The notes beneath the pieces were generated by a model. It worked only from the letters and a program-made list of their open reading frames with translations, ran no database searches and was not told the DNA's origin. Source: Ulota crispa (taxonomy: Eukaryota > Streptophyta > Bryopsida > Orthotrichales > Orthotrichaceae). From it: DNA of 64,000 bases. Every line of letters starts with the position of its first letter. Within the stretch, counting starts at the first letter, position 1. Shown here piece after piece: positions 16,627-51,528 of the stretch. The stretch is taken from contig OY987246.1 in assembly GCA_963920765.1 (NCBI GenBank), forward strand, positions 7,814,501 to 7,878,500. The letters run 5' to 3'. The translations under genes and the position numbers were made by a program.

Positions 16627-17545
16627 CCCCTAAAGGACCAAGTTGCCTGTTTTTTTGGCAACATAGCAGTTTTGGGCAAGTACTTATGATTGGAGATTTC
16701 CATATTTTAGGCTAAAATTCTTATAGAAAGTGGGGGCAAGAAATGTATTTCATATACATTAAATTTCATGACATTGAAATTATGAGTTAAAAGTCATGGC
16801 CTAATATGTTGTTTTTCTCACTTGGTAGGTAGTTTGGGCAGCTTTTAAAAATCTTTTTTTAAGAGATAAAATTTGAAATTGGTTCAAGAAATTAATGTGT
16901 ATGTTGAAAGCTTTGAATCATTCCATTTTGATCAATGAGATCAAAGTTATGAGGAGTTTTTGTTTGCAAGCAATTATGGATTCTCTACTCTAAAACAAAC
17001 TTTGAAGCCCTCTATTTTACTCAATTTATCAGTATTTAGGAAAAATGTACCAAAGGATGCTAATTGTTTATTATAGCATTACAACCATTGGGATTGGCAT
17101 TTTTCATTTACATAATTAAGTTCCTAACAATTTAGTGTTTTGGATCATTCTCTACTTCTTTTTGCTTACTTTTTTTTTCCCATGTGTTGTACAATTCCAA
17201 ATGATCTAAAACTTTTTGACATGTACCCTACTTAGGTGGAATAAGGAATCTAGAGAAGCACCGCCCAAATGACCTTTTTTCCTTAGGAATTTCTCCTTTT
17301 GAAGAGTAGCCACCCAATTTATCACATAACCCAAAAGAGCATTTCTAAATACTTAAATTTTTCTTTCTTCCAATCCATGTGGTGGAATATTCTAAGATAT
17401 TTTCTACGTCTTCTAAATCTATTCTACTACAAGATCCTACAATCACATATGCATAAATATGTTTTTGTTTCCAAATTTGGATGATGATCTAAAAAAGGCA
17501 ATTCTAGCAAATTATTGGTGAAAACGTAGCTTGGTCCTTTAGGGG
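16627..17545. mobile_element. TTAA-flanked MITE P1 (919 bp)
   Basis: Perfect 16-bp terminal inverted repeat CCCCTAAAGGACCAAG / CTTGGTCCTTTAGGGG. Right flank TTAA, left flank TCAA (one change). The right half carries the family blocks (CAATTTAGTG, TGTGTTGTACAATTCC). Non-coding. Confidence 0.85.
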
Positions 17546-17604
17546 TTAAATTAGACCATAGCAATAAAGTAAAAATAAAATCCTCAAAAAAATTGTGGTT
17601 TGGG

Positions 17605-17830
17605 TAATAAGATAGGTTTATCCAATCCCAACCATGTACCTAATGTTGTCATTGTGTACCCACATTGACCATTGTAGAATTGAAATCTATATACTTCATA
17701 GATAGCTTATCATATGTGTTGGTGTCACAAATAAGTACCTAGATTTCAATTCTAAAATGATCATTGTGGGTACACAATGCCGCATTAGGTACATGGCTGA
17801 GATTAGGTAAACCTACCTTTGTGATTATTA
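17605..17830. mobile_element. Foldback MITE of about 226 bp
   Basis: Arms of about 100 bp: left has AGGTTTATCCAATCCCAACC and ATGTACCTAATGTTGTCATT, right mirrors them through GTACATGGCTGAGATTAGGT. Ends lie near TAATAA / TTATTA; a TA duplication is likely but the border is not exact. Confidence 0.7.
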
Positions 17831-19094
17831 CAAGAACCTCCTTGGTGAGAGTATTTCAAGACATTTTCTAACTATGGTGCTTTGTTTGGAGTTGTTGTGT
17901 TGTATGGTTGCTGAAGTTGTTTTTGCAAGGTTGTTTTTTGAACTAAGAAGTTGAGTTTTTAAGATGAAGTGTGCTTGTGCTTTTATTATAATAAATCCTT
18001 TATGATAATTGTTTTTATTTTTATTGTATAAGTGTGAGGGAAGTAACACAAGAATTATAGAAAAAATGAATGAATGAGATTAGATGTGGTACTAAATGGC
18101 TACGTGTTAAGTGGTGTGTCTATGGATGAAGATGATAAAAAGTAAGCCAATAGGACATTCTGGGATCAAAACCTACTTGTCTTTTGCCTTTGCCATCTAT
18201 GAGTGTGTATAAGTTTTTTGAGGTTTCTAGTCCAAATACACAAAGACTTCCAAATGTAATATCGTCCAAAATGGTATTTAAGCATGGCACACAAAAACTA
18301 TAAGGAATCAAAGTCAACCGTAGATTTTTCAAACCCATGTTCTCATTTCAAAGACTAAATGGTGAGCATTCTTAAAACAATTATTGAACACCACCTAATA
18401 AGAATAAATGCTATTGTGTGGATTCATTAAAGCTAGTTTAAAAATAGTGTCATCTTCACCAATTGATGTGTAATCTTTTTTCAAAGTTTCTATATATTAT
18501 TTTGCTTTTTTTTGGTACAAAATAGCATTATCTTCAATGTCATCAACTTGGTTACAAAGCAAGGTTGTTCTATAAAGATCCAATCATGGATGATTTTTTT
18601 TGGATAAAGCATTATCTCAAAGCATGCAATCCATTGTTTGAAACACATCATTTAGAACACGTGGTATTGTAATAAAATACCAATTCAAATTTATAAACTA
18701 AGCATAAAGAACAAAACTAGAGTACCTTGTACAAATGATTTTTCTTTTCACCATAATATATATGTCCGATTGGTTTGAATTTTTATATGTCCTTCCAAGT
18801 CCAAACACACAATTATGCAACTTAATCTCAAGGGTCATAAGTCATAAGAGCACATGATTTGGATTTAAGAACTTCTAAAACAACTTGTCTTCTTTGGACA
18901 ACCAAAAATTATAAATTTCTTTCTTTAAATAATATGGTCTTGTTAACTGTTTGGAAAAAAAATACAAAAATACAAAATCAAGTTGATATTAATATCAAGA
19001 AGTTAAATTCACAAATCATATCTTCAATAATCACTATTAAGTTCCATTTTGAATGGACATCTACTTTGCAATTTGGTCATAGAACTAATTAGGA
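17831..19094. other. AT-rich spacer, nothing recognised
   Basis: Several short open frames (17828-18049, 18120-18338, 18859-19092) have no domains and AT-rich codon content. Probably old repeat sequence. Confidence 0.35.
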
Positions 19095-19395
19095 TTTAGG
19101 ACCTTAGAACACCATATTTGTTATAATGAGAGTTTTCCACTAAAATGAGCAAAAATTTAAAGGAAATATAACCTAAATATTAAAAAAATAGGTGAATTTA
19201 GCTTGATTTGAGCTAAATTAACTTTAAATCTTTAATATTTGACTTGAAGTTGAAAGGTTTTATGTCAATTCAGCTCAATTCAAGCTGAAAACTCTCATTT
19301 TAATGAAAATTGGTGATTTTGGTCAAGATCAACATGTTTATTTTGAGAGGTCCCCATTCTCTCATTATAACATATATGGTGTTTTAGGGACCAAA
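19095..19395. mobile_element. Foldback MITE of about 300 bp
   Basis: Left terminus TTTAGGACCTTAGAACACCA and onwards to TTATAATGAGA; right terminus in reverse TTTGGTCCCTAAAACACCAT then TGTTATAATGAGA. The inner part is also palindromic (AGCTTGATTTGAGCTAAATT / TTGAGCTGAA-like). Target duplication not determined. A partial relative (AACACCATATTTGTTA) is near 32722. Confidence 0.65.
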
Positions 19396-21412: not shown

Positions 21413-22116
<704 letters not shown>

Positions 22117-22153
22117 TTAAGGTAAACACAAGGCCAATTCCATCTTTCCTTAA

Positions 22154-23082
22154 CCCCTAAAGGCCCATTGTCCCCTCGAGGGACAAATGGGATTTTGGGC
22201 AGGTACCTATGGCTAAACTACTTTGCATGATTTTCTAAAACTCTTATTGAAGGTGGGGAATTATAAGATTTGCGTGGGAATTTAATTTTTCCTTCATTAT
22301 TGAAGAAGTTATGCATGAATAATTGAAAAACATGGGAGAATTGGGTAGCAAAAAAAATTGCCACTTTTTTAAATAAAATTTTGAAATTGGTTCTTTAAAT
22401 TTTTATGTATTTTGAAAGCTTTGAATCATTCAATTCTGATAGATGAGATGAAAGTTATGAGAAGTTTTAGTTTGAGGGTAGGTAGGGGACTCCCAAACTT
22501 CCATTCCTTTTCCCCATTGTAAAACTTGTTGCTTTACTTTTTTGAGCTCTTTGCGTATTTGTTTTTTGACTTTTTTTTTTGCAAGTTGTAGTAGACTAAG
22601 ATTCATTGGTTTTCGCCATTTAGATCAAAGTAATTTGGGTTTTTGAATTTTACATAAATCCTCCAATTTTGCCTAGTGTATTTGCAAATTTCATGACCTT
22701 ACGGCATTGCAAGATTTTACAAAGTATGATCCACACCTCCGTTTCATTTGAAAATTCTCCCACATTTACCTAACTTGGTCTTCTACATGGGAAAAATAAA
22801 CCTCAACTTTGCATAGAGCAAGTTTTTTGATATAGGAGCCGTGAAAGGCTTCTGAAATTTTTGGGCAATAGGGAAAAAAACATTTGATGTCACTTCAGAT
22901 GTCAATATCTCACTCATCTACAACTAGAATGAGCTGACTTTTTTCCCACAAGTACCTCCCATAGTCTAGGGCAAGATCTTTTGGTTGGATTTCCCAAAAA
23001 AAAATTGTATTTCTCCTCACTCATCCAAAAGTGACAGTTTTGAGTGATTTTCACACAAAAAAAGGGCTTGGGTTTTTAGGGG
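22154..23082. mobile_element. TTAA-flanked MITE P3 (929 bp)
   Basis: Left end CCCCTAAAGGCCCATTGTCC after TTAA. Right end TTGGGTTTTTAGGGG before TTAA (23083-23086), which is also the left TTAA of P4. Contains the subfamily blocks GGGACAAATGGGATTTTGGG and GGGGAATTATAAGATTTG. Non-coding. Confidence 0.9.
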
Positions 23083-23086
23083 TTAA

Positions 23087-23310
23087 CCCCTAAAGAGCCC
23101 TTGGGCTTTGGAGATATGGTACCAAATACAGTCGCAACCAATATTCAAAAGTTTGAATTAGTTGGAAATTAAGTGTTACAACCATACATATTGAAAGGTT
23201 GTATGATGGTGGGTGCATAATTTTTTTTGAAAAACCCTCAAAGCAGCTCAAATATGTCTGTACATACGACCGTATACACGGCCACAAAGGGCTTTTGGCC
23301 CGTTCAAGGG
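23087..23310. mobile_element. TTAA-flanked short element P4 (224 bp)
   Basis: Begins CCCCTAAAGAGCCCTTGGGC directly after the TTAA shared with P3 and ends GGGCTTTTGGCCCGTTCAAGGG before TTAA at 23311-23314. The interior is unlike P3. Confidence 0.7.
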
Positions 23311-23510
23311 TTAAAGCCCTCTTTTCCATTACATAAAATGTAGGGCACAAAAAGCTCCATTTTTATACTAACAAGAAAATCAAAAAAATCTGCCCCTATT
23401 GTATAGTTGCTCATTTTTGCCTAATTTAATCATGGTAAATTAATTGAGGACCTTTGAATCCAACCATGAATCCAAAATCTCCAAATTTGAGTTGTGTGAT
23501 AAATCTTTAA

Positions 23511-24984
23511 CCCCTAAAGGCCCAGCTGTCCCCCAGGGGACAAATGGATTTCAAGCATGTACCTATAGCTAATCTAGTTTTTGTGATTTTTCAAAACTTT
23601 TATTGAAGGTGGGGAATTCCAAGACCTACACGGGCATCTAATTTATTTTGTCATTTTGGCATTTGACGAAGAGGATATGCAAGAATTTTTGCTGCCCGAG
23701 GAGGGTGGGCAATCTAGGCAGCCCAAAAACTTCTTAAAATTTTGTATTTCCTAAAAATAGAAATCTGAAATTGGTTCTTTAGATTTTTTTTCATATGTGG
23801 GAAGCTTTGAATCATTCAAGTTCAATTGATGAGATGAAAGTTATAAGATGTTTTAGTTTGTGGGCAATTATGAATTCTCTACTCTAAAACAAACATTGAA
23901 GTCCTTTACTTTCCACAATTTTCAATATTTTGGAAAAAAAACTAAACCCAAGGAAGTAGATTGTTTAGAGATGGGGACACAAAGATCCACTCCTCACTCA
24001 AACCCTTCCCATGTAATCAATTCTTCACCAAATCTAAAACCAATTAAATATTTTAAAAGCTTATAAAGGGGGAAAATAAGTATTAAAATTTGAAAAGTAA
24101 ACTATTCCAACTCCATGTTTTACACCCATGCCAAGTGTAATTTTGCACTATCAAATATGCCATGTTCATCAACTTTTAGTCTTCCACCAACAATTTTTTA
24201 ATCTTTTAACCACTTTTTAGAGCTTGAAATTGCCTCAACTCAAGATGGAAAGAGGGACACAATGCACTAAAATTTGACATGAATCAAATTAGGAGAAGAG
24301 TTAGTTAAAAATCATTTAGAAAAAACATCAAATTATGCTTAAAATGCTTTTAAAATCACTACAAGTCCACCATCAGTCTAAAACCAATACATTCTCACCC
24401 CTAATAAGAGCTTTCAACATATATAATTTTAAATTTTAGATTTAGTGAAGTGTTGATTGCGTGGGAGAGATGTGATTGAGGAGTGGATCTTTGTGTCCCC
24501 ATCTCTATAACAACATTATATCCATCTGGATTTGCATTCTTCATTTTAATAATTAAATTCTTAACAATTTAGTGATTTGACTCATTCTCTATTCCTTTTT
24601 ACTTACTATTTTCCCCCATATGTTGTATAGTTCCAATTGATTTGAAAATTCTCCCACACATACCTAACTTGGTCTTCTACATGAAAAAAATAAACCTCAA
24701 CTTTGTGTAGAGTAATTTTTTTCATGTAAGAGTGGTCAAAGGCTTCTGAAATTTCCTAGCAGTAAGAAAAAAAACCTTTTCCCTTCACCTCACATGTAAA
24801 TATCTTCTTCCTTTCCATCTAGAATGACCTGATTTTTTCCCACATGTACCTCTTCTAGTCTAAGGCAAGATCCTACAGTTGGATTTGCAAAACAAACTTT
24901 TTTTCCTACTTTTCTTACTCATTCCTCCCAAAGTGCCAATTAACAATGACTTTCACTAAAAAAAAGGGCTTGGGCCTGTAGGGG
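23511..24984. mobile_element. TTAA-flanked MITE P5 carrying a nested MITE
   Basis: Flanked by TTAA (23507-23510, 24985-24988), ends CCCCTAAAGGCCCAGCTGTC and GGCTTGGGCCTGTAGGGG. Without the nested 538-bp element plus TA it would be 934 bp, matching P3, P6, P12 and P14 (921-935 bp). Confidence 0.9.
23968..24505. mobile_element. TA-flanked MITE nested in P5 (538 bp)
   Basis: Inverted termini GAGATGGGGACACAAAGATC / GATCTTTGTGTCCCCATCTC, flanked by TA on both sides (23966-23967, 24506-24507). P12 (reverse) and P6 have the uninterrupted sequence GATTGTTTATCACAAC or similar, which gives the empty site. Tc1/mariner-type target; family not recognised. Confidence 0.88.
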
Positions 24985-25579
24985 TTAAATCCCAACCATT
25001 TTTCATAAATAAAAAATGTGAAAAGTTTCACCTCAAGGTTCACTTGAAGAAAGTGAAATGAGTATAGAAAAACGGAGAAAGCTTCCATTTACTAAAGAAA
25101 ACTCACCTTCGTATTGCTTCTAGAGTGCGGCTTCCAGAAAGAGTTAAACTAAAAAGTAGTATGAGTTTTATCGCTTCAGAGGTGGGTTTTGTGCACGTTT
25201 GTCAATGCCATGAGTTGAAGCCTGCAAGCCGAGTGTCCAGCGTTTCTCTCACTGGTGAAGTGTGCAGCCTTGGGAATCACAATTGTTTTGAAAATAGGGA
25301 ATTGCTAAATCCACCACAGTTTTTTTTGCTAGATACACCACATGGCCCACCTGACACAGGCCCCATCAGAGACACCACATTTAGGCCCCATTCTAGACCC
25401 CACCTCATTCATTTCCTTCCAGCTTTTTAATCCAAGCACTAGAAATTCAAAAATTAAATTGGTTTTTAATCAATTGAGTTCAGTTTCACTCAACTTTTTT
25501 TACATTTTATTTGGCTAACTTTTAATTGCTTCTCGGCCCTCCTTGTACATTATTTAAAAGTTCTTTAAAGAAAATAAAA

Positions 25580-25989
25580 GGGAATTGATATATGCACACC
25601 TTGGGTTTGATATGTGCACACCCCTTGGGGTAAATTTTAGATTTTTATCATTAAAAAGTTGAATTTGAAGTCTTTGAATTTAGATTTAGACTTAGAGACC
25701 TTGGTTTACTCTAGAGCCATAAAGGAGGTTACAATTGAATAACAACCAATGTAAAAGCTTAGCTATGCGGAAAAGTATTACTTTTACTTTTGTCTGTTTA
25801 AAATAACTAAGTTTTTACATCGGTTTTTATTAAATTGTAACCTCATTTATGGCTCTATACTAAATCAAGGTCTCTAAGTCCAAATCTGAATTCATAATTT
25901 TCAAATTCAACTTTTTCATGATAAAGATCTAAAATTTACCCCAAGGGGTGTGCATATATCAAATCCCGTGTGTGCCCATATTAATTCCC
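25580..25989. mobile_element. Family A foldback MITE (410 bp)
   Basis: Begins GGGAATTGATATATGCACAC and ends ATATTAATTCCC. Terminal units TTGATATRTGCACACC occur twice at each end, and the inner arms ATTTTTATCATTAAAAAG / CTTTTTCATGATAAAGAT mirror each other. It sits in the loop of family D. No clear target duplication. Confidence 0.8.
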
Positions 25990-26013: not shown

Positions 26014-26936
26014 CCCCTAAAGGACTGTTGTCCCTGTGGGGGACAAATGGGATTTTGGGCATGTACCTATGGCTAAACTACTTTGTGTAATTTTTTGAAA
26101 CTTTTATGGGAGATGGGGAATTCAAAAATCTACGTGGGCATCTAATTTTTCCTTGTTTTGACATTCGATGAAGAAGTTATGCAAGAATTTTTGCAACCCA
26201 AGAGAGGGTGGGCAATCCAAATAGCCAAAATACTTCTTTAAAATTTACATTTAATAATAATATAAAAATCTAAAATTGGTTCTTTAGATTTTTTTGTATG
26301 TGGAAAGCTTTGAATCATTCAATTTCAATCAATGAGATGTTTTAGTTTGTAGGTAGTTACGGATCCTCTACTCTAAAACAAACTTTGAAGTCCTTTATTT
26401 TCTACAATTTTCAATATTTTGGAATAAAAACTAAACCTAAGGAAGCATATTGTTTACTACAAAATTATAACTATTGGGATTTGCATTTTTCAATTCTATA
26501 ATAAAATCCTCAACAATTTAGTGATTTGACTCATTCTCTTCCTCATTTCACTTACTACTTTTTCCCCATGTGTTGTATAGTTCCAATTGATTTGAATATT
26601 CTCCCGCACATGCCTAACTTGGGCTTCTACATGGAAAAAATAAACCTCAACTTTGTGTAGAGCACTTTTTTTCATGTAAGAGTGGTCAAAGGCTTTTGAA
26701 TTTTTTGGATAGCATAGAAAAAAACCATTTTTTTCACTTTGTATGAAAATATTTTCCTCCCCTCCATCTAGAATGACTTAAATTTTTTTCCCACAAGTAC
26801 CTCTTCTAGTCTAAGGCAAGATCCTACAATTGGATTTAAAAATTAAAAAAAAAAAAAAACTACCTTCTTACTCATCCCATAGAAGTGGCATTTTTTAGTG
26901 ATTTTGTCAAAAAAAAGAGGCTTGGTCCTTTAGGGG
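26014..26936. mobile_element. TTAA-flanked MITE P6 (923 bp)
   Basis: TTAA at 26010-26013 and 26937-26940. Ends CCCCTAAAGGACTGTTGTCC and GGCTTGGTCCTTTAGGGG. Same subfamily as P3, with the block CTATGGCTAAACTACTTTGT. Inserted in the family D foldback. Confidence 0.9.
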
Positions 26937-27205: not shown

Positions 27206-27634
27206 AGTAACCTTTTGCAAAACTGATCCTTACACCCGATATTCTCCCCAAAACGTCCATGAGAACATTTTTTGTTCTTTGGCCCTGAAAAAGCATTTTG
27301 TACAACAAAAAAAAAGAGTTTTTCATCTTTTTTTTTTTCAAAGTGACTGTAAACATACGATCCATCATAATAGAAGGCAAATAACAATCTTATCATATAT
27401 ACTCATACTTTTAGGTAACCCAATTTGTGAGAAAACTCAAAATCACGGTGTTAAGTCCCAAGCTGCCCTTATTGCAATTTTCATGAGGTTGGCATACACT
27501 ATCAACTTTTGAAACTTTTAGAAGCAATATTATTGGTGCCCATCAATCAAAACATTGCTAAAGCTACAATACAAACAATGTTGAAGCTACAGTATGGGCA
27601 AGCCACGACCACCCACTGGACATTTAAGGGTTAA
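27206..27634. other. Spacer between repeats
   Basis: No gene recognised; short frames at 27279-27512 have no domain. An AAGGGTTAA motif immediately left of P7 (27627-27634) resembles the decayed right end of another TTAA element abutting P7. Confidence 0.35.
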
Positions 27635-28133
27635 CCCCTAAAGACCCAAGCCATTTTTCTAAAAATCATCAAAAAATTGTCACGTTTAGGGGAATGAGTA
27701 GAAAGGTAGGAAAATAAGTTTAGTTGGAAATCTAACTTTAGGATCTTGCCAGACTATGGGAGGTATTTGTGCAAAACAAGACTTAGCTCATTTGAGATGT
27801 AGAGTGATATATTGACATTTGAAGTGTAGAAAAAAAAAATCTTCTTGCCTGCAAATTTTAGAAGCCTTTGACCACTCTTATAAAAAAAAAAGCCACTCTA
27901 CAAAAAATTGAGGTTTAATTGCTCCATGTAAAATACTAAGTTAGGTATGTAAAGGAGAATTTTCAAATCAATTGGAGGTGTACAACACACTTCAAAAAAT
28001 CTTTGAATGCTGGACAGTCATGAAGTTTGCAAATACACTAGGCAAAACTGGAGGTTTTTTGTAGAATTCAAAAATTCAAATCACATTGATTGAAATGGTA
28101 AAAATCATGGAATTTTAGCCCACTACAACTTGG

Positions 28134-28180
<47 letters not shown>

Positions 28181-28773
28181 CCTCTCAAAGGATGAAAATA
28201 CCAAATTTTACAAGGGGCAAAAGGAATGGAGGGTTAGGAGTCCCCCAAGACAGGCTCGGCTTCCACTCCACTCCACTTTACCTATTGTAAGTGTTAACAC
28301 CTTGTGCCAGTAAGAGTTGACACTGTTTAGAATCAACACCCACTTATAAAAAAGAGGCCCTCCTTGAATTGCTCCTTCTCCTGTACTTTTGGAAATCTAT
28401 GTCTGTTAAAGAATCCCAAGACCCCAGTTTGGATGAAAAGTGGAGAGTTTGAGTGCAACTATGAGTTGCATTCCATGTATGTAAGTTGCGCCTTTTACAT
28501 TTTTTTTATTTAACAAGTTGCACCTTTTATGTATTCTATTGTTGCACCTTTTACATTTTCTGTTTAGTGCCTCCGTTGGTACAATGGGTACATAAACTAG
28601 TTCTTTCATAATTTTTTCATCAAATGTTGGGATAAAGAAAAAAAAAGATGCTATTGTAGGTCTTTGAAATCCTCAATTCCACACCATCTATAAAAGCCAC
28701 AAAAAATCACACAAACTAGTTTAGTTGCACATACGTGCCCGGTCCCTTGAAGGGACACTTGGGGCTTTAGGGG
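27635..28773. mobile_element. TTAA-flanked MITE P7 (1139 bp)
   Basis: TTAA at 27631-27634 and 28774-28777. Ends CCCCTAAAGACCCAAGCC and TTGGGGCTTTAGGGG. Reverse orientation relative to P3. Contains a poly(A)-(AC)n tract at 28139-28177 and an extra non-family segment (28240-28600) with repeated TTGCACCTTTTA. Confidence 0.85.
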
Positions 28774-29578: not shown

Positions 29579-30318
29579 TATGTGGGTTTGTTACAAGAGG
29601 ATATGAAGTTTGGGTTTATGAATTGGGCTGCTTTTAACGATTTCCGGTAATCGAGTTTATAGCAAAAGAAGTGAATAATTTCATGCAGAAGTAGTCTAAA
29701 TGTCAAGCAAATAGGGTGGGGCAACCTAATGAACCTATCTGGTTACAATTCCTTGCCCAATTTTACATTTTTTAACATAATGAATATGCAGTTTATACAT
29801 ATGGTATTGATAAGACTTACATTTTAAGAGAGTGAGGAATTCTCTTTCATTTATATAAAATTTCCAACAAAGTTCAAAACCGTTTAATGATTTGAACCAT
29901 GATCATTTTCTTGTCCAAATATGTTGGCATATGATGTGGAAATAATGTTGGCAAAATGAATCTAGTCCAAAATTGTGTGTAAGGTCCGTGCTAAAACAAT
30001 TTTGAACTCACAGTGAGGTGTATTTACCTTGAATGACTAATAAGAAATTATTAAATTGTCTTTGCATTGTAACTGATTAAAATTTATTATGGTAAGCTGT
30101 ATAGGTGGGATAAACAAGTGATTTATCTCCTAACCCAAACTTTTTGATGTTGATAAATTTTCCTTACAATTATGCATAAAAATGTTTTTGTTTTCAAATT
30201 TGGTTGATGCTCTAAAAATGATAGTTTTGAAGAGGTTTTGGTGAAAACTTTACTTGGTCCTTTAAGGGTTAAGTGTAACACACGTCACTCTTGTAGACTA
30301 TATGGACCAAGACCTTAG
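29579..30318. other. Spacer with a solitary TTAA-element right end
   Basis: Bases 30186-30268 (GGTTGATGCTCTAAAAATG to CTTGGTCCTTTAAGGG, then TTAA at 30269) match the right end of P1, but no left end was found. Probably a truncated ninth copy (P8). The rest is AT-rich and unannotated. Confidence 0.5.
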
Positions 30319-31217
30319 CCCCTAAACTACCAAGGCCATTTTTTGCCAAAAACCACTCAAAATTGTCCCTATTGCTACGTTCATCTTAAATTACAACAAA
30401 ATGTTTTTCTTGAAAACTGAACCATAGGATCTTGTAATGCACTTGTAGAAGAAGAAGCCATAAATTTTTTGTGACATTTGACCATACGGATTGAAATTTA
30501 TGAGCATTTCAAGGAATTTTATTTATTTATTTATTTATTTTTTCATTGAGCCCAATAATTTCAGATGGCTTTGACTGACATTTGCTGATATTTTTTTGAC
30601 TACAGACCTCAAAGTTCTAATTTTATCTTATAGGCAATCCAATTAGACATACGTATACCAATTTTCAAGGCAGTCAAAGACACGGAACACATCCTAAAAA
30701 ATATTGCAATGCCACTATATGACAAGTTTTGCAAATACACTATGACATTTTGAGTGAAGTTTCCCACCACAAGTTTCTAGATATGAAAAATCCAAACAGT
30801 GTATTTGGAGATGAACATACATGTACTTCATATGTCAAAAAAATAAAAAGTTAAATAACTCTAAAACTCTAAAATTTAGAAGCTCCCAAAGCCCAATTTG
30901 ACTTCCTAATTGGAAATGAAAAGGGAATAATGGGGGCCACCAAAGCAACAGGTGGCAACCCCTCCTTGCTCTCCTTGGCCCCTACTCCAAAGTCAATATC
31001 TTCTCCCTTGCCCAAAATACCCCTTGAACTGCTTTTGGCCAAAAAAACTCATAACTTGTGAACCGTGTAACATAATCACATGATTTTTTGCATCCCACAA
31101 ACCTTATAGATTCCTACACACTTGTAAAAAGCTTCAAAAAATCATGTAAAAAATTGAGGTCATACGAGCCTACCCAAAATCCCGAAAGACCCCGCGTGGA
31201 CTTTGGGGCTTTAGGGG
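30319..31217. mobile_element. TTAA-flanked MITE P9 (899 bp)
   Basis: Left end CCCCTAAACTACCAAGGCC after TTAG (one change from TTAA). Right end ACTTTGGGGCTTTAGGGG before TTAA at 31218-31221. The interior differs from the P3 subfamily. Confidence 0.8.
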
Positions 31218-31838: not shown

Positions 31839-32487
31839 CCCCTCAAGGCCCATGCTCTTTCCGGAATATTTCAGAATCTATTCTTGAACAAACAAAATGT
31901 CAACATTTTGATAGCTTGCATTAGTTTTTTTAAAATTGTAACCATACAAATTCAAACTAGATAAGTTAGAAATCACATAGGAAAAGAAAACACAACAATA
32001 TATCTTATGGATTGAAAGATTATAACATTCGATCAAGAGGGTGTTAAAATTCTGAAAGTGATTTGAGGTTTTTCAATCCTCTTTTCACATCTCAAATTTA
32101 AAATTGAGGATACCAAAAAAATATGAGTATGTAAAGTACAACATGTGTAACCCTAATCAATTTATGGCTTCTTAAAATCTACTCTACAGCTTTTTAAATT
32201 GAGTTTTTAATGTGATTGTTTCTCCAAGTTCTAGTGTACTTTAGGCTCATTTCCAAGAGCTCTCAACACTAAAAAGTGAAGATTTGCAATGGAGACCCTT
32301 GCACAAAATCTTAAATAGAAAAATCATAATTAGTCATTTTCAAAATCAGACTTTTGATACTAAAACAAGACTTCAACAAGAACTTTTAAAAAATTGAAAA
32401 AATCATTATAATTAATCATGAAGTAAATTTAGGCATCCCTTTTACAAACAAGGAAGGACAGTTTTGGTCCCTTTGGGCCTTGAGGGA
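31839..32487. mobile_element. TTAA-flanked MITE P10 (649 bp subfamily)
   Basis: Ends CCCCTCAAGGCCCATG and TTTGGGCCTTGAGGGA, flanked by TTAA (31835-31838, 32488-32491). The interior (GCTCTCAACACTAAAAAGTG and others) is the inverted counterpart of P11 and P16. Confidence 0.85.
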
Positions 32488-32908: not shown

Positions 32909-33553
32909 CCCCTAAATGCCCAAGGCACCACATTTTGGTGTCAACAATATTTTGAAGTTCTATAAAACCTAGTTAAGTTGCTATTTTTAGGATTTAGTAT
33001 TTTAGAATTATTATTTTTGAAGTCTAGTTTTAGGATCAAAAACCGGATTTTGAAAGTTATAGATTGTGAATTTTCTATTCAAGATTTTGTGCAAGGGTGT
33101 CCATTGCAATCTTGACTTTTTTAGTGTTGAGAGCTCATGAAAATGAGCCTCAAATACACTAGATCTTGGAGAAAAATTCACACTAAAATTTCATTTTAAG
33201 AAATTGTAAAAGAGATTTTGAAAAGCCATAAAAGGATTGGAGTTATGTATGTTATGTCCTTTAACCTCATATTTTTTGGTGATTAACATTTTAGATTTGA
33301 CATGTGAAAAGTGGACTGAAAGACTTGAAGTCATTTTTGCAGTTTTAGCACCCTCTTGATCAAACATTATAATCTTTCAACCCATTAGTGATATTGTTGT
33401 GTTTTCTTTTCCTATGTAATGTCTAACATATCTGGTTTTAATTTGTACGGTTACAGTTTAAAAAAATTAATACAATTTATCAAAATGTTAGTTTTTTGTT
33501 TAGTTTAGAGAAAATTCCTAGAAGCCCAGAAAAGGCCTTAAACATTTAGGGGT
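32909..33553. mobile_element. TTAA-flanked MITE P11 (645 bp subfamily)
   Basis: TTAA at 32905-32908 and 33554-33557. Ends CCCCTAAATGCCCAAGGC and CCTTAAACATTTAGGGGT. Opposite orientation to P10 and the same to P16. Confidence 0.85.
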
Positions 33554-35843: not shown

Positions 35844-35902
35844 TTGTAAAAAAAAAGGTTGATTTTTGTTTTCCTTGATCGCACAAACATGTATGTGCAG
35901 TA

Positions 35903-36769
35903 CAGTAACAGTTAGTAATGATAGGTAGAACCTGTTTTGGCATTTCAAAGAAGTTTGTATACCAAAAATTGTAAAGGTCATTTTAATCTCATATTTTTGG
36001 TATGTGATTTTCATGCAATTCCAATGGATCATACCAAATCTTGGTTACTAAAAATCAAAATCCTATTTTTGGTAAGTTGTTTTGTGTCAAAATCACTGTT
36101 TTACAAGAAAGTTGATTGAGACACATTGGTGATGAATTTTTGAGATTTGATTGCATGGATATTTAGGAGACATTCATACACACATCTTTCCATTTAGCAA
36201 ACATCTTCAAAAAGTTCAAAATTCCATCAATAGAGGTTTTTATGCTGCAATGATCATGACCAAATTTTGTAAAATAAATATCTCCATTTTTTAATTAGCT
36301 TTTGGCAAAATGAACATATCATCATGTTCAAAGGTATAGAATCAATCATAATATATGAGTCAAACAGCACAATTTAATTACCATAAAGAATTATTTATTT
36401 TATTAAATTTGGTCATGATTACACCAACGTTCAAGTCTCCATTGAAGGAATTTTGAACTTTTTGAAAATGTTTGTTAGAAGGAAAAATGTGTGCATGGAT
36501 GTTTCCTACCCTTGCATAAAATCAAATCTCAAAAATTCATCACCAATATGTATTAATTAACTTTCTTGTAAAACCGTGATTTTGACACAAAACAACTTAC
36601 CAAAAATAAGATTTTGATTTCTTGTAACCAAGATTTGGTGTGGTACATTGAAATTGCATGAAAATCACATACCAAAAATATGAGGTTAAAATGACCTTTA
36701 TATTGTTTGATATACAAACTTCTTTGAAATGCCAAAACAAGTTCTTCCTATCATTACTAACTGTTATTG
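35903..36769. mobile_element. 867-bp foldback element, pogo-type ends
   Basis: TA at 35901-35902 and 36770-36771. Left end CAGTAACAGTTAGTAATGAT, right end in reverse CAATAACAGTTAGTAATGAT. Arms of about 370 bp mirror each other (for example TTTTTGGTATGTGATTTTCA); loop about 130 bp. The short open frames in both arms (35937-36119, 36553-36735) are mirror translations of the same arm. Confidence 0.88.
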
Positions 36770-39038
36770 TACATTGAGCCCCCTAGTTGATCTCCTTCAT
36801 TCCTTCCCTTTCGAAATTGTCAAGGTTTGTAATTACGCCTCATTTTTTTGGCACGAGGCCTAGAGGCTCAGAGACACGAGCAAAGAGCCCCCACCATGCT
36901 CTTATTTTAACGAATGAGGCCGTTGCGGAGGACAAATGTGCTGAAATTTTGGTAGAAATGGCACCAAGTTTTGGTGGCCAAAGATGCATTTCATCATTTG
37001 CGTAGGCTTTTCTGTACAATTGCTGCACTTCCAAGGAAAGAATGTGCGGTGCTCAGATGGGTGTACCCCACCACCATCCCACGTTTCAAGGCAGTTCTTC
37101 TGTCTTTTTGACCAAATTCTGTTCATGAGAAAAAGCTCATTAATTTGGTCACCAAATGAGACAATCCATAACATTGTTAACCTTCACTAGGGTTCCCTTT
37201 TGCTCCCCCAATATGAGGATCCCTTCAGCCAATGTCATTCATGAGCTCTGTGCCATTACCAATGGAAATCTTTAACTAAACTAGAGTCCAGGTATCCAGG
37301 GGCAAATATCCCTCCAGTGGGGGGAGGAATATGATTGGGTAAATAATGATATGTTGAGGCTTGTTATTATTCCTTACTTTGAAGTGTAGCAAATTTTGAT
37401 TTCTTTTGGAAACATTTTTCTATCCCATCAGATTGATCAACCCCTTAATCCCTACAACAAATATTGCGTTTAGGTTGCTCCCATACTAATTTATTGACAT
37501 TTCACACTATTTACATACTTACCAAGACTACAATAACTTTGTTCAATAATTACTGTGATAAACAATGGAGGAAGCAACAAGAGGTTGGATGCGTCAACAA
37601 GCGCTAAAGTTAAGGACCATAGAAGTTGGAATCTTAGACAAAATCAAGAATTACTATAGCATAAAGAGAGTTGCATGCCCCTCTAGGTGGCCAAACGTGA
37701 GTCATGAGGTAACTTTGTCAAGGTAAGGCAACCTAATTTTAAAGCAACCTAAATGCACTATTTGGTGTAAGCGCCCAAGCCATCTTCACCAAAATTAGGG
37801 TTTTGGGAGACCTACAACTTTGGTGCATTATATCTAAATCATGCGGATGATTCAGAAAAAACAACCATTGAAAACAGTGGGACATTTACTTCAAAATTAA
37901 CTTGCAAAATTTGGGAACTATTAACCATGGGAGATGGGAGATTATAACATTTGATCAAACAAAATGAGATGACAAAATCTCATTTTTGACACACACTTGC
38001 TACTTATTGATTTTTACAAAATTCTAAAAGCCCCTTATTCACCTCAAAATTTGTGAGTGGCAAGATTAGATGTGAATGTACCCACATGCAAGTTATTGAA
38101 GACTGTACTTTTACAGATTTTAAGTTTTTAAGGCTTCAAAATGTTGTTATGCAAAAGATGATGATCGGCAAAGTTGATGAGGGTTACCACAATAGAGGTT
38201 TAGAATGTGCCTGAATCCTTGTTGGCCAATCTCTTGCCACCACAAAGTACACACATGGAAGCTTGCAACAAGTATTGACCTTTTGCAACCTGTAAGACGT
38301 TGCTTGCCACCTCGCCTCATGTAGTGTTCCACCAATCAAGACTCTCTGGGTGCTTGTACAATGTTTGCCTTGCCTTGCCATTACTCTACTTGCATGAACC
38401 ACTAATATACATTAATACTTGTAATTTATAAGAAGGTCAAAAATTAGATCTAATGCCTCAAATAGGCCTCTAAAATAATGTGAAGACACTTTTGGTCTTC
38501 TGAGGTGTTTAGAAGTTAACCTCCCATTGCCTAAGTGGATGAAATTGTCCCTATTTCTTGTGTATTCTGAGATCCATTAACAATGAGGGATCTACTCTTG
38601 AGGGCACTTTTGGTTGAGGTACAAACAAGAGCCCGAGCAACGAAGGATCTTGTTACATGTGCAATTGCTCTAGCGGCCTCCCAAAGGAGTTTGCAATATC
38701 CTAATGTTCAACAAGGTTTGGAGTTGCCATGGACCTTAGCAAGTCTGATTGTAGATGGAATGGAAGAATTGCAAAAAAAAACTGTTAATGATTTAGTTGC
38801 ACTTGCCATCCAAATTGATAGCGTTTAGCTACTCAAGTTTTGAAAGTTTCGTTTGAGCGGCCAATTAGGATTTTGTGTTGGGGTCATGCATTGAGCTTCC
38901 CATATGGCTTTGCAAGCAAATTGGAGACAACTTTTTTATTCAAACCTACTTGTACTATACTACTATTGCACCCTCATTGCAACCAGATTGAGAACGACCA
39001 AAGAGTGCAAGGAATGGGCAGCATGTGGCTGGGATTAA
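36770..39038. other. Spacer with unassigned GC-richer patches
   Basis: Bases 36790-37190 and 38150-38830 are GC-richer than the surroundings and hold small open frames. The frame at 38583-38828 reads like protein (RARATKDLVTCAIALAASQR) but matches nothing I recognise. A copy of the dispersed repeat of 11255 is at 37485-37615. Possible relics of older elements. Confidence 0.35.
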
Positions 39039-39973
39039 CCCCTAAAGGCTCAAGTAGTTTTTTTCAATGAAAGTCACTGTAACTGCCACTTGGGGGAAAT
39101 GAGTAGAAAAGTAGGAAATAAAGTTTGTTTTGCAAATCCAACCATAGGATCTTGCCTTAGACTAGAAGAGGTACTTTTGGAAAAAAATCAGGTCATTTAG
39201 ATGGAGAGGAGGGAGATATTTACATCTAAAATGAAAAAAAGGTTTTTTTTGTGTTGTCCAAAAAAAATTTAGAAGCCTTTGTCCACACTTACATGAAAAA
39301 AATTACTCTACACAAAGTTTAGGTTTATTTTTTCCATGTAGCAGACCAAGCTAGGTATGTGTGGGAGAATTTTCAAATCAATTGGAACTATACAACACAT
39401 GGGGGAAAATAGTAAGTAAAAAGAAATAGAGAACGAGTCAAATCACTGAATTGTTAAGAATTTAATTCTTAAAATGAGAAATGAAAATCCCAATGGTTAT
39501 AATGTTGTGATAAACAATCTACTTCCTTAGGTTTAGTTTTTTTCCAAAATATTAAAAATTGTGGAAAATTAAGGACTTCAAAGTTTGTTTTAAAGTAGAG
39601 AATCCATAATTGCCCACAAACTAAAACATCTCATAACTTTCATCTCATCAATTGAAGTTGAATGATTCAAAGTTTCCCACACACGAAAAAATCTAAAGAA
39701 CCAATTTCAGATTTCTATTTTTAGAAAAGAAAATTTATAAGAAGTTTTTGGGCTGCCCAGATTGCCCTTACTCCCCTGGGCAGCAAAAATTCTTGCATGT
39801 CTTCTTTGTCAAATGTCAAAATGACAAAAAAAAAAGAAAAAAAGATTCTTGGGTAGGTTTTGGAATTCCCCACCTTCAATAAAAGTTTGCAAAAAGCACA
39901 AAAACTAGATTGGCTATAAGTACATGCTTGACATCTCAATTGTTCCCCGGGGGGACAACGAGGCCTTTAGGGG
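39039..39973. mobile_element. TTAA-flanked MITE P12 (935 bp)
   Basis: TTAA at 39035-39038 and 39974-39977. Ends CCCCTAAAGGCTCAAGTAG and CGAGGCCTTTAGGGG. Reverse-orientation member of the P3 subfamily, giving the empty site for the nested MITE of P5. Confidence 0.9.
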
Positions 39974-39978
39974 TTAAA

Positions 39979-42250: not shown

Positions 42251-42333
42251 TTAAAGGCATTTCAAAGCTACATAGGGATCATAGTCCCAGACTTGTCATA
42301 GTTGGTTTAATTGCAAAACAATCATGAACTGTA

Positions 42334-43267
42334 CAATGGGGGGAAATAAATTTTGTTGCCTTTTGTTTTTTCACTTAAAGGTCATGTCATGTTATGTTTT
42401 GAAATTGAGGCCAATTGGGTTTTTTGATCTTGCATTTTTTATATCTCATTCTTGCCCCCAATCTCAACCAAGCATACCAAAATTCAACCTCAAAAAACTA
42501 AAATCCAAATTTTGACAAATTGCTTTGTGTCACAAATCATGACTTTACACGGTTTTACAAGAAATTTGATTGAAAAACATTGATGATGAATTTTGAGGAT
42601 TTGATTGCATGGATGTATAGGTAACATCCATATGCACATCCATATGCACATCTTCCATGCTAAAAAAACCCCTCAAGGAAAAAAAATTGATCTTCATAAG
42701 GTTTAGTTCAACATGTGATATGTCCAAATCTTGTAAAATAGATATTTTTAAATTTTAGTTAGCTTTTCACCAAATAAACATAGCAACATGTTCAAAATTA
42801 CAAACTTAATCACAAAGTATGAGTAAAATTGCAAAATTTGACTATCATAAGAATTATCTATTTTACAAGATTTGGATTTAGCACATGTTACACTAAACCT
42901 TATGAAGATCATTTTTTTTCTTGAGGGGGGTTCTTTTTAGCATGGAAGATGTGCATATGGATGTGCATATGGATGTTACCTATACATCCATGCAATCAAA
43001 TCCCCAAAATTCATCATCAATGTTATTTAATCAATTTTCTTGTAAAACCGTGTAAAGTCATGATTTGTGACACAAAGCAATTTGTCAAAATTTGGATTTT
43101 AGTCTTTTGAGGTTGAATTTTGGTATGCTTGATTGGGATTGGGGGCAAGAATGAGATATAAAAAATGCAAGATCAAAAAAGCCCAATTGACCTCAATTTC
43201 AAAACTTAACATCACATGACCTGTAAGTGAAAAAACAAAGGGCGACAAACTTTATTCACCCCCATTG
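42334..43267. mobile_element. 934-bp foldback element, TA-flanked
   Basis: TA at 42332-42333 and 43268-43269. Left CAATGGGGGGAAATAAATTT, right in reverse CAATGGGGGTGAATAAAGTT. Arms of about 400 bp. The inner arm (TTTTACAAGAAATTTGATTG, GATGATGAATTTTGAGG) is related to that of the 867-bp element at 35903. It contains a doubled CACATCCATATG motif in each arm. Confidence 0.85.
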
Positions 43268-43378
43268 TACATAGGCATGACAAAACACTAGGTGCTTATC
43301 TCACTAGCACAAAAATGAGGGGGACGTAGCCTTCTAAAAATGGCTTGTTCTATTGCACATATGTTGATGTGGGATTAA

Positions 43379-43781
43379 CCCCTAAACGACCATAGGGAAC
43401 CATAGATTCCTGGCCGTATTGTAATTCTACGGTGACTCAAATCTAGTTCTTATTCCTTTCTTGGCGCGGATTGTGAATCTAAGTGGCTAGACAAGACCAC
43501 TTGCTCCTGGCACTCTGGCACCGTGTGCATTTTGGGGATCCACCACAGGGTTTTGTAAGTCGAAGATACGCTCCAGCTATGTATTCGTAGCCCACCTCCA
43601 GTACAAATGCTTCACAAAGTTGGAAAAACCATCGCAAATACATGCCGAACATTGCAAAAGGTGGAGAAGAACAACAATACACAACCCTAAAAAATCCAAA
43701 CAAAACCCAAAACAATAACACCTCTAAATACAGGAAAAACACTTTATTTTGGCTGCAGCGGCATGCTGTATTGTTTAGGGG
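43379..43781. mobile_element. TTAA-flanked element P13 (403 bp), GC-richer interior
   Basis: TTAA at 43375-43378 and 43782-43785. Ends CCCCTAAACGACCATAGGG and CTGTATTGTTTAGGGG. The interior is unlike the other members and GC-richer. An 87-codon minus-strand frame (43479-43742) has a Cys-rich end (KCTRCQSARSKWSC); this might be a remnant of transposase 3' coding sequence or chance. Confidence 0.82.
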
Positions 43782-44591: not shown

Positions 44592-45414
44592 GTGGGTGTC
44601 AAACCTAGCTATTTCCCACCCGACAAGTTTGACTAGGTCCACCCCACAACTCAACCACTTTTTGAAATTATAAGGCATGATAACTTCATCACCCACCTCT
44701 AGAGGTGGTTGAAAACTTAAACTAGTTATGGCCTATTTTTATAAAAGTTATCAAGTGATCTTGTAGCTCTCTTCTAGAGGGAGACTGACAGACTGTGATA
44801 CTAAAGAGGGAGATTGTGATACTAAATAGGGAGACTGTGATACTAAATAGGGAGACTATGATACTAAAGAGGGAGGGTGTGACACTAAAGAGGGAGGGTG
44901 TGACACTAAAGAGGGAGGGTGTGATACTAAAGAGGGAGGGTGTGATACTAAAAAGGGAGGGTGTGATACTAAAGAGGGAGGGTGTGACATTAAAGAGGGA
45001 GGGTGTGATACTAAAAAGGGAGGGTGTGATACTAAAGAGGGAGGGTGTGACATTAAAGAGGGAGAGTGTGATACTAAAAAGGGAGGGTGTGATATTAAAG
45101 AGGGAGGATGTGACATTAAAGATGTTAGTGTTGTTAGTTAATCATACTACTAAAATCTAAATTACCTCTGTAATATCACACCCTAACCTCTTTAATATCA
45201 CACCCTCCCTCTTTAGTATCACACATCATTCTTTGTGACATTATCCCATACATAAGTTATGAAGACTTACTCAAACTTTTATCAAATAATTTGTGAAGCT
45301 TTAAAAGGGTGATAACTTTGAAAAATTTGATTCAGCCACCACCCAATAACTTTACAAAAAAAATCCGGACAAAATTGTCCCGAAACCTTCAAATATGCCA
45401 GGTTTGACACCCAC
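44592..45414. mobile_element. TA-flanked element carrying a minisatellite (823 bp)
   Basis: Perfect inverted termini GTGGGTGTCAAACCT / AGGTTTGACACCCAC, bounded by TA (44590-44591, 45415-45416). Inner segments are also partly inverted (GATAACTTCATCACCCACC-like against ACCACCCAATAACTTT-like). The 21-bp array fills the centre. Family not recognised. Confidence 0.75.
44785..45122. repeat. 21-bp minisatellite, about 15-16 copies
   Basis: Unit GATACTAAAGAGGGAGGGTG plus T. Variants alternate GAC/GAT and AAG/AAA. Because 21 is a multiple of three, both strands stay open (ILKREGV and HPPSLVS repeats), which is an artefact. A short inverted part of the array lies at 45172-45226. Confidence 0.95.
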
Positions 45415-46180: not shown

Positions 46181-46243
46181 AATGTGCAATAAACAGTTCT
46201 AGTGGGGAGAACACTAAAATTTTAAAACCAACACTTGTCTTAA

Positions 46244-47164
46244 CCCCTAAAGGACTAGGCCCTTTTCTCTGTGAATAACACTAAAAATTGCCACTTTTGG
46301 GAGGATGAAAGGAATGGTAAGTTTTTTTGTTTTGTTTCAAAATCTAATCATAAGATCTTGCTCTAGATAGTATGAGGTACTTGGAAAAAAAATGAGCTTA
46401 CTCCAAATGAAAAGGAGTGAGATATTTACATGTGAAGTGAAGAAAAAAGTTTTTTTTCATACTGCCCAAAAATTTCAAAAGCTGTTGAGCACTCCTACAT
46501 CAAAAAATTTGCTCTACGCAAAGTTGACGTTTTTTTTTCTCATGTAGAAGACCAAGTTAGGTATGTGTGGCTAAATTTTCAAATCAATTGGAATTATACA
46601 ACACATGGGAAAAAATAGTAAGTAAAAAGAAGTAGAGAATGAGTCAAAACACTAAATTGTTAAGATTTTAATTATTAAAATAAAAAATGCAAATCCCAAT
46701 AGTCATAATGTTGTGATAAACAATCTACATCCTTTTGTTTTGTTTTTTTTTTCCAAAATAATGGAAAATGAGTAAAATAAAGAACTTCAAAGTTTATTTT
46801 AGAGTAGAGAATCTAGAATTGCTTGCAAACAAAAACTCCTCATAACTTTCATCTCATTTATCAAAATTGAATGATTCAAAGCTCCCCACATCTACGTAAG
46901 TCTAAAGAACCTATATCAGATTTTTATTTGAAAAAAATGAAAATTTTAAAAAAGTTTTTGGTTGCCCGAGGAGCAAAATTTTCTAGTGTTTCATGCACAT
47001 CTTCTTCAATAAATGTTGGAATGAAGAAAAAATTACATTCCCACATAAATCTTTGAATTCCTCACCTTCAATAAAAGTTTCAAAAAATCACACAAAGTAG
47101 TTTAGCCATAGATACATGCCCGAAATCCCATATATCCCCCAAAGAGACAATGACTCTTTAGGGG
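46244..47164. mobile_element. TTAA-flanked MITE P14 (921 bp)
   Basis: TTAA at 46240-46243 and 47165-47168. Ends CCCCTAAAGGACTAGGCCC and CAATGACTCTTTAGGGG. Reverse-orientation P3 subfamily. Confidence 0.9.
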
Positions 47165-49325: not shown

Positions 49326-50230
49326 ATGGCTCCAAAAAAAGAAACGGTAGATGGGAAGACCATCACGTGACAACAATTTTGGAGATGTATGAAGATCAAT
49401 ACGTCACGCATATCAACCAAGGAAACCTCAAAGCGCATCATTGGCAAGAGATTATGACAACTTTCAATGGGAGATCTCAAAAGACTTTCACAATTGCAAA
49501 TATCCAAACCAAGATCGATTGGTGAAAGAAGGTGTACAAAAAAGAGAGAGCAGAGGTTGTCAAGGTCATTGGAGGGACGCCTTCTTCTTGGCAATGGTAC
49601 TACGCTTGCAATTTTTTATGGGGATCTATACCAAAAACTGCTGGAATGCTTGGTGCAATGGACGTTGGCAATGAGGTACCTTTTACCAATACCGTTGTTA
49701 ATTTGGATGATTACAAGGGCCCAAAATTCATTGATCTCAATTTGGATGTTCCAAGCAATACGATTTAGATAACGCCAAATTTAGATGGTGATTCCGAGGT
49801 TGTTGAAGATACAGTTTGTGAGGTTGGGAATAGCACTCCTTTCACAGAATTGCACAATTCTTTAGACCCGCCACGGGAACATGTTTGCAAATTAGATGGT
49901 GTCGTGGGAAAAGTCAATAGCAAGGGAAAAAAGAGGAAGAAAATAGATGACGCTATTGAAGCTCCAATGGCAAAGGTGTTTGAGAAGTTTGTGGATACTT
50001 ACAGGGCAGTGGAAGAAACAAAAGTCAAACTTGCCAATGATCACATGGCATTTGTTGCAGAAATTCACTGCAATCGGCAAAATTTAGAAGTGTGTCTTCA
50101 CGAGTCTAATGTGCAGATGGAGAAAGAGAAATTGCAGAGGAGTGAAGAATTGAAGATCAAACTTCTTTGCTTGAAACTTAAATTTGGACATGGTGGAGAA
50201 GGAAGTAGCGGTTCCAATGGTTTAAACTGA
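49326..50230 (+). pseudogene. Myb/SANT accessory protein of a PIF/Harbinger transposon, decayed
   Basis: PIF/Harbinger elements encode a Myb/SANT DNA-binding partner of the transposase. The start is MAPKK at 49326; the next part, one frame off, reads NGRWEDHHVTTILEMYEDQY, then GNLKAHHWQEI and TIANIQTKIDW, the trihelix-like SANT domain. One missing A in the A-run at 49333-49339 would explain the shift. The rest stays in one frame to TGA at 50228, interrupted by TGA (49523-49525) and TAG (49766-49768). Later parts show WQWYYACNFLWGSIPKTAGM and a Lys/Glu-rich coiled coil. Both internal stops are one C-to-T change from CGA or CAG. It could instead be a host SANT gene, but no intron structure or intact frame supports that. 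Confidence 0.75.
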
Positions 50231-50670
50231 AAGCCATTGAAGTTTATAGAATTATGAGTATTTATTATATTTATTTGTTTTGTACTTATGTTATTGATGA
50301 CTATATCCATAGTCATTGATTTATAGATTGTTGATGTTGTATTGATTATTATATATTTAAATATTTATATATATTATAGTTTTATTTATTGGTTATTGCA
50401 TCTTAGTTGTGTAATATTCATTGATTATATATATATATGTATATTGTATGAAAATATTTCTTTGAAAATTTGGGTTTAGAATGAATTTAAAGGGATGTAT
50501 CAAAAAAATAAAAAATATAGCATATTAGTTACAACCTTGTTTGCATTCAATGATTTAAATTTTAGCAATTTGTACATTTATTGAATCATATTACCATATT
50601 TTTCAAATAAGTAATAAATGATAATATAATAAAGAAATATCACAAATTCTATAACATTGTTGTAACACTC
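50231..50670. other. AT-rich 3' flank of the Harbinger ORF
   Basis: Very AT-rich, with short (TA)n tracts at about 50350 and 50428. No terminal inverted repeat of the Harbinger element was found. Confidence 0.35.
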
Positions 50671-50674
50671 TTAA

Positions 50675-51528
50675 CCCCTAAAGGACCACTTGTCCCTACG
50701 GGGGACAAATGGGATTTTGGGCATGTACTTATAGCTAAACTACTTTGTGTGATTTTTTGAAACCTTTACGGAAAATGGAGAATTTAAAAATCTATGTGGG
50801 CATCTAATTTTTTCCTCATTTTGACATTTATTGAAAAAGTTAAAAATGAATTTATGATAATTTTTGTTTGGCGGGCAATCCAAAAACTTTTTTAAAAATT
50901 GCATTTTCTTAAAATAAAAAATCAAGGTTAGTTCTTTAGACTTATGTATATGTGGGAAGCTTTGAATCATTCAATTTCAATTGATGAGATGAAAATCATG
51001 AGAAGTCTTAGGTTGCGGGTAGGTGTGGAAAATCTCAAAACTATGCCTACATGCAAACTAAAACTTCTCATAACTTTTATCTCATCAATTGGAATTAAAT
51101 GATTCAAAGCTTCCCAAAAATACATAAATCTAAAAAACTAACTTCAAAAATTTATTTAAAAAAAATGCAATTTTAAAAGAAATTTTTGGGCTCCCTGCTA
51201 AACAAAAATTATCATAAATTCATTTTTAACTTTTTCAATAAATGTCGGAATGAGGAAAAAATTAGATGCCCACACAGATTTTTGAATTCCCCATCTTCCA
51301 TAAAAGTTTCAAAAAATCACACAAAGTAGTTTAGCAATAAGTACATGCCCAAAATCCCATTTGTCCCCCGTAGGGACAAGTGGTCCTTTCATTAGTAGAA
51401 AATTGTGTTGAAGTCAACATAAAGTATTTGATGTTTTCATGCTTCTAACTCAAAAATTTGCTTAAAAGCATGAAAACATCATGTTGTTTATGTTGACTTC
51501 AACATAATTTTCTACTAGTGTTTAGGGG
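50675..51528. mobile_element. TTAA-flanked foldback P15 carrying a CACTA MITE
   Basis: TTAA at 50671-50674 and 51529-51532. Long, nearly perfect arms: CCCCTAAAGGACCACTTGTC through GGGACAAATGGGATTTTGGG, mirrored from 51361 leftwards. Without the nested 131 bp plus its 3-bp duplication it is 720 bp. Confidence 0.9.
51390..51520. mobile_element. 131-bp CACTA-type MITE nested in P15
   Basis: Right end in reverse starts CACTAGTAGAAAATTATGTT; left end CATTAGTAGAAAATTGTGTT. Flanked by a 3-bp duplication TTT (51387-51389, 51521-51523), as expected for CACTA/En-Spm elements. Removing one copy restores GGTCCTTTAGGGG, the normal TTAA-element terminus. Confidence 0.9.

Follow-up and report, generated by a model that had tools for sequence, protein, structure and literature searches.

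Probable non-autonomous piggyBac-type elements at TTAA sites, and piggyBac transposase relics, in a plant genome

The window analysed here is a stretch of 64,000 nucleotides of Ulota crispa DNA, located at G000:C5:7814501-7878500 in a 274.8-Mb assembly of 157 contigs (11 large ones, of 41.4 to 6.3 Mb, among the 20 looked at). Between positions 16627 and 51528 it carries a series of small elements with short inverted ends beginning in CCCC. These elements are very probably non-autonomous DNA transposons of the piggyBac superfamily, resembling miniature inverted-repeat transposable elements (MITEs), and piggyBac transposase relics occur in the same genome. The elements are flanked by TTAA, related empty sites hold one TTAA, piggyBac transposases are present, and transposase-bearing and small elements have nearly the same right terminus. 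The initial annotation had proposed a piggyBac-type reading from the window alone, and this reading is supported.

In this range, 29 termini of the CCCCTAAAGG type are readable—13 two-ended elements and three single ends. TTAA adjoins 26 of the 29, where about 27 had been claimed before; the exceptions are 16627 (TCAA), 30319 (TTAG), and 33552 (TAAA). The earlier statement that the outer bases are invariably T (left) and A (right) is correct only in part. Left out of the count, as doubtful or outside the range, are 27246 (TTCT) and 3671 and 14064 (both TTAA); 37441 (TCAA) and 58564 and 63696 (both TTAG) are left out as well. For comparison, a sample of 262 kb was used, consisting of the window and 20 genome stretches (L029-L048), of which L029-L038 were picked for holding the motif and L039-L048 blind to it. 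The elements of the window are the following, with the strand given where one was assigned:

16627..17545: two-ended TTAA element of 919 bp; flanks TCAA and TTAA.
21413..22116: two-ended element of 704 bp in which two "left" ends in inverted arrangement enclose an ATAC/AT microsatellite; TTAA on both sides.
22154..23082, plus strand: member of the 929-bp family; TTAA on both sides, with TTAA 23083-23086 common to the next element.
23087..23506, plus strand: a left end alone is readable, and no right end was found; the end coordinate is the base before the TTAA of the next element.
23511..24984, plus strand: member of the 929-bp family, interrupted by a nested insert of ~0.55 kb; TTAA on both sides.
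26014..26936, plus strand: member of the 929-bp family; TTAA on both sides; its empty-site paralog, 25406-25708, holds a single TTAA.
27246..27630: element whose right end is readable at 27630 (TTAA) and whose left end at 27246 (TTCT) is doubtful; TTAA 27631-27634 common to the next element.
27635..28773, minus strand: diverged member of the 929-bp family; TTAA on both sides.
30268..30268, minus strand: single readable right end at TTAA; partner not found.
30319..31217, minus strand: diverged member of the 929-bp family; flanks TTAG and TTAA.
31839..32487: element of the ~650-bp size class with ends CCCCTCAAGGCCCA and TCCCTCAAGGCCCA; TTAA on both sides; L043 and L044 hold paralogs of the empty site.
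32909..33552: element of the ~650-bp size class with left end CCCCTAAATGCCCAAGG; flanks TTAA and TTAAA; relative at L047:5810-6462.
39039..39973, minus strand: member of the 929-bp family; TTAA on both sides.
43379..43781: element of 403 bp; TTAA on both sides.
46244..47164, minus strand: member of the 929-bp family; TTAA on both sides.
50675..51528: foldback element, self-inverted over 50680-51389 (87%) and with a second palindrome at 51390-51520; TTAA on both sides.

The window contains 24 copies of TTAACCCC, compared with an expectation of 2.2 and a maximum of 7 in shuffled sequences, an approximately tenfold excess. For the flank-blind scoring, the terminus CCCCTAAAGGCCCA was used without its flank and rated by matches out of 14 bases. 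Places with at least 12 matches are bordered by TTAA in 19 of 20 cases in the window and at 67 of 71 ends in the 262 kb; at a threshold of 11 matches, the corresponding numbers are 24 of 30 and 85 of 112. The reversed control motif yields 13 chance places in the 262 kb at this lower threshold, so that part of the ends without TTAA there is due to chance. Position −5 is near background, with T39, C29, G25, and A19 among the 112 ends. Genome-wide, exact TTAACCCCTAAAGG is found 15,411 times and its reversed pattern once, and CCCCTAAAGGACCA 8,876 times with a control of 0. Directly preceded by TTAA (TTAACCCCTAAAGGACCA) are 7,555 or 85% of these 8,876 ends. The ten motif-blind stretches contain seven TTAA ends (at least 11 of 14) per 100 kb; a rough extrapolation from this small sample would put the order of magnitude for the genome at 20,000 ends, equivalent to 10,000 elements.

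Within the 262 kb, 42 two-ended elements were paired. The main family is described by a 929-bp consensus built from 25 copies with a GC content of 30%. Its inverted terminus CCCCTAAAGGACCA is identical in 14 of 14 positions at both ends. The left subterminal region features a hairpin (TTGTCCC...GGGGACAA) and the right one a T-rich stretch. The consensus has no coding capacity—the longest open stretch comprises 69 codons, and no piggyBac signal is better than E 2. The Kimura two-parameter distance of the 25 copies to the consensus ranges from 0.18 to 0.93, and its median of 0.24 indicates that the copies are old. Shorter size classes of ~650 and ~235 bp have ends related to those of the 929-bp family. 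In addition, palindromic left-left elements with TTAA on both sides occur at L032:458-1176 and at 21413-22116 of the window. Either the transposase accepts pairs of left ends, or rearrangement made the left-left or foldback elements.

Duplication of the target was assessed at empty sites by joining the flanks of the 42 paired elements at one TTAA and seeking uninterrupted paralogs in the 262 kb. For five elements, a paralog runs through a single TTAA at 80 to 89% identity, in line with what the initial annotation expected of empty sites. These elements are window 26014-26936 (88.8% over 303 bp), window 31839-32487 (two paralogs, 89% and 84%), L036:3580-4512 (89%), L047:5810-6462 (88%), and L031:825-1751 (80%). 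Moreover, exactly one TTAA is common to each of six pairs of back-to-back elements: window 23082/23087 and 27630/27635; L029 8861/8866; L030 5085/5090 and 9413/9418; and L032 208/213. One TTAA per neighboring pair is the expected outcome when an element inserts into the TTAA bordering an earlier one. A further case of such a reused target site is G000:C8:19573829-19573849, where a small-element end in reverse orientation (CCCCTAAAGGACCAAGG) abuts the end of a transposase element with one common TTGA.

The transposases lie elsewhere in the genome. The PF13843 (DDE_Tnp_1_7) profile has at least 120 matches in this genome (116 of 528 candidates scored), with a best E of 1.3e-73, and 0 matches in 14 control genomes. 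Internal stops are present in 110 of the 120 matches listed. Twelve loci were fetched, mostly for a high score or few stops and hence not as a random sample; the 10 frames that were scanned come from nine of these loci, and each has PF13843 as its sole Pfam match. The frame at L053 matches the solved transposases piggyBat (E 2.6e-24) and piggyBac (E 7.6e-20) and keeps, as judged by eye, the three acidic residues in TVDE, TDNF, and GVDIVDQ. A Cys-rich tail can be seen by eye in L051:1048-1512 and L056:2323-3411; the tail and the complete triad were not seen in one protein. Numerous copies are broken, and L050 carries N at the third catalytic position. L058 and L059 are ~90% identical over at least 3.9 kb, which indicates that the transposase families are not all equally old. 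In the window itself, no piggyBac transposase had been noticed before, and a local piggyBac profile agrees: on the window and L001-L048 it gives nothing better than E 0.99, yet it finds 12 of 12 transposase loci. Stretches of PF13843 without internal stops are located at G000:C1:1180709-1181995, C8:19570986-19572215, and C2:36765124-36766008, the last with an inverted copy at 36779670-36780554. No exact TTAACCCCTAAAGGACCA is listed within 10 kb of the C1 stretch. Such stop-free stretches are possible candidates for domesticated genes.

A word-sharing search of L053 against 5.8 billion proteins gave 25 matches. The closest are seven proteins at 46 to 50% identity (P0241-P0247), followed by two at 46 and 43%; the rest are at 26 to 36%. 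In this last group, the two matches that bear a species name are both insects, and no plant name is found among the 25. In a tree of 41 sequences, nine transposases of this genome form one branch with P0241-P0244 (100/99) apart from the sampled insect piggyBacs. The own copies are deeply split within this branch and do not form one group; the root and some long rows of the tree are unsure.

The small elements and the transposase copies are connected by their right terminus. The 12 transposase loci were scanned, at a cut-off of 10 bits, with a matrix derived from the 112 ends of small elements. Outward-facing ends reach it at L054 (left and right), L052 (right), and L057 (right), an inward-facing one only at L061; five such ends compare with 1.1 expected by chance on both strands, an excess that would be weak as the sole link between the families. 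The last 300 bp before the right end of L054 match only two other places in the genome, on C8 and C7, and at both a copy of PF13843 lies some 1.6 kb upstream. When the query extends to 365 bp beyond the predicted L054 end (936), three other matches stop at 935, 940, and 941; the third of them, C5:22320714, is not beside a listed transposase. The right ends fetched from these places are TTGA-CCCTTTAAGGACCGTGG (C8), TTAA-CCCATTAAGGACCATGG (C7), and TTAA-CCCATTAAGGACCGTGG (C5) and score 16.3, 21.0, and 18.4 bits, respectively, on the small-element matrix. The right terminus of this one transposase family reads TTAA-CCCATTAAGGACC(A/G)TGG, compared with TTAA-CCCCTAAAGGACCAAGG as the consensus of the small elements. 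Its boundary was located at four places, of which three adjoin a PF13843 domain; a place on C6 comes in addition. The rare terminus CCCWTTAAGGACCRTGG exists at 51 places genome-wide. Three of these face outward and lie downstream of a PF13843 domain, at distances of 1,558, 1,621, and 1,630 bp; with random placement, 0.10 outward ends would be expected on average within 4 kb of PF13843. Two of them were the source of the pattern; the one on C6 is independent and also has TTAA. At C5:1458656, a further CCCWTTAAGGACCRTGG place follows 2.9 kb downstream of sequence resembling the N-terminal part of L054, with no PF13843 listed there.

Two candidates for ends or longer elements were rejected: L054:197 as the left end of the transposase element, being situated inside an unrelated high-copy repeat, and a 3.35-kb candidate long element on C1, which consists of separate small elements. 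The repeat, of which L054:1-351 is a part, has 857 candidate places (40 scored), and several pairs are separated by ~8.4 kb, a spacing that would suit a long terminal repeat. The ends at L052:4484 and L057:4392 suggest that other transposase families may terminate in TTAA-CCCTTCAYYGCC, which is close to CCCCTCACTGCCCA of the ~650-bp elements; these families are possible partners of this size class. For the L057 end, one relative was found, C9:14688688, without a listed transposase nearby.

A number of observations weigh against the assignment of the small elements to piggyBac. A right end of at least 10 bits is present at only three of the 12 loci (L054, L052, and L057), and the L061 end with such a score faces the wrong way. 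For the transposase-bearing elements, no left terminus was found, and the 430 bp upstream in the C8 copy contain none. Of the longer element that the initial annotation had envisaged, with the same ends and a DDE_Tnp_1_7 transposase, the transposase and a nearly identical right terminus are recovered. Furthermore, 48 of the 51 CCCWTTAAGGACCRTGG places are not near a listed PF13843 match, and the rare and the abundant terminus differ at 3 or 4 of 17 positions, so that the mover of the abundant elements may be another exact family. In the empty-site test, two of the 42 elements have paralogs with a changed site (L032:7451-8400 with TTGG at 83%, and L035:2615-3537), 29 gave no match across the junction in the 262 kb, and six were uninformative because of a neighboring element at the joined flank.

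Among the alternatives, it is very unlikely that another superfamily with a TTAA target, Kolobok or Sola3, moved the elements and that the piggyBac relics are a separate matter. Sola3 duplicates TTAA. Kolobok likewise does so according to the available text of PMC9587614, which gives its termini as 5'-RR ... YY-3'; with the 5'-CCCC termini found here, Kolobok was dropped. Both superfamilies are at odds with the piggyBac transposase copies of this genome, which have nearly the same terminus, at TTAA. Fainter still is the prospect of a Tc1/mariner-type transposon that duplicates TA at a target that happens to be TTAA (A-CCCC...GGGG-T at T-TA-A). The two parses are formally ambiguous from sequence, at filled and empty sites alike, and a Pogo/Tigger-like DDE_1 (PF03184) frame of 505 aa is located within the window (55998-57515, plus strand). 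The invariant outer bases, which had been taken as proof of a four-base duplication, are not sufficient by themselves since a TA duplication would look the same. The TA parse needs two additional invariant target bases, and such ends were found together with piggyBac transposases; it is this transposase identity, and not the outer bases, that speaks against it. The pogo-like frame lies outside all listed TTAA elements. No link to a Tc1/mariner, Kolobok, or Sola3 transposase turned up, with no genome-wide search made for these. Least probable of the three is that TTAA belongs to a longer inverted repeat (TTAACCCC...) without any target duplication. This would produce the same conserved flank at filled sites, but one TTAA is kept in the five empty-site paralogs, and one, not two, is present in the six neighboring pairs. 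PIF/Harbinger elements have a 3-bp TWA duplication and were rejected, as four bases are conserved outside the ends.

Under the piggyBac assignment, a DDD transposase of piggyBac type encoded elsewhere in the genome would recognize the ~14-bp inverted ends (CCCCTAAAGGACCA), excise the elements, and reinsert them at TTAA under duplication of this site. We infer that such a transposase moved these elements, presumably by the usual hairpin cut-and-paste mechanism with seamless excision. The size classes of ~929, ~650, and ~235 bp would in this way have spread to the order of 10,000 copies; these elements and most transposase copies would since have decayed. The chances are about even for a broader scenario: a piggyBac lineage resident in land plants, which split inside one genome, probably that of a moss, into several deep families apart from those of insects, drove a very large MITE expansion, left more than 100 fossil and possibly a few open genes, and could use two identical left ends.

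The ends of piggyBac elements are short inverted repeats starting with CCC, and piggyBac is a main transgenesis tool. The elements described here agree with the superfamily (piggyBac/IFP2 of T. ni, piggyBat, and the insect tagalong/TFP3) in the duplication of a TTAA target, in the CCC-initial short inverted ends, in the difference between left and right subterminal sequences, and in the DDE_Tnp_1_7 transposase with three conserved acidic residues. The use of TTAA by TFP3 is stated in the available text of PMC8634313. Unlike known piggyBac systems, the family resides in a plant host, comprises very many long (929 bp) non-coding copies, and includes some elements with two left ends; nine transposases of the genome branch with four other proteins, apart from the sampled insect ones. 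The mechanism and the class are known, and the host is unusual.

That the genome is a plant one, as first assumed, is supported by the start of contig C2, which features plant-type (CCCTAAA)n telomere repeats with 141 units within the first kb; the pogo-like protein of the window has two species-named relatives among the 120 matches listed, both from the fern Adiantum. In the literature available, records of native piggyBac elements in land plants are few. As far as the available text of each source goes, a beetle study of 2025 lists animals, fungi, and protists as hosts of piggyBac and plants, such as red algae, as occasional ones (PMC12732532); another paper mentions isolation from insects, fungi, and plants (PMC10813416); the repeat table of a fern assembly counts 1,230 "PiggyBac" hits with 122 kb in total (PMC6890710); and a review of plant transposable elements names PiggyBac among the superfamilies without a native plant example (PMC10794571). 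The red-algal and fern records are a piggyBac signal in plants in the broad sense and, in the text available, give only occurrence or hit counts, with no ends, target sites, or large family. The initial annotation had called piggyBac rarely or never described in land plants; of this, "never" is too strong in view of the available parts of PMC10813416 and PMC6890710. Among the titles and abstracts retrieved on piggyBac in land plants, bryophytes, mosses, and Physcomitrium patens, none describes a native land-plant family, and the moss genome paper among them uses the word "piggybacking"; a record in subscription literature or Repbase is possible. Thousands of TTAA elements and more than 100 piggyBac transposase matches in a plant widen the known host range, and plant repeat libraries would gain a missing class. 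The timing of the gain of piggyBac by plants and the conversion of copies to host genes become testable.

Further repeats of the window are two palindromes at 42330-43271 and 35900-36772, which are 88% and 83% self-inverted across 0.9 kb; none of the TTAA/CCCC ends of the window is present at their borders. A tandem array with a period of ~21 bp extends over 44790-45122 and has inverted copies at 45024-45224.

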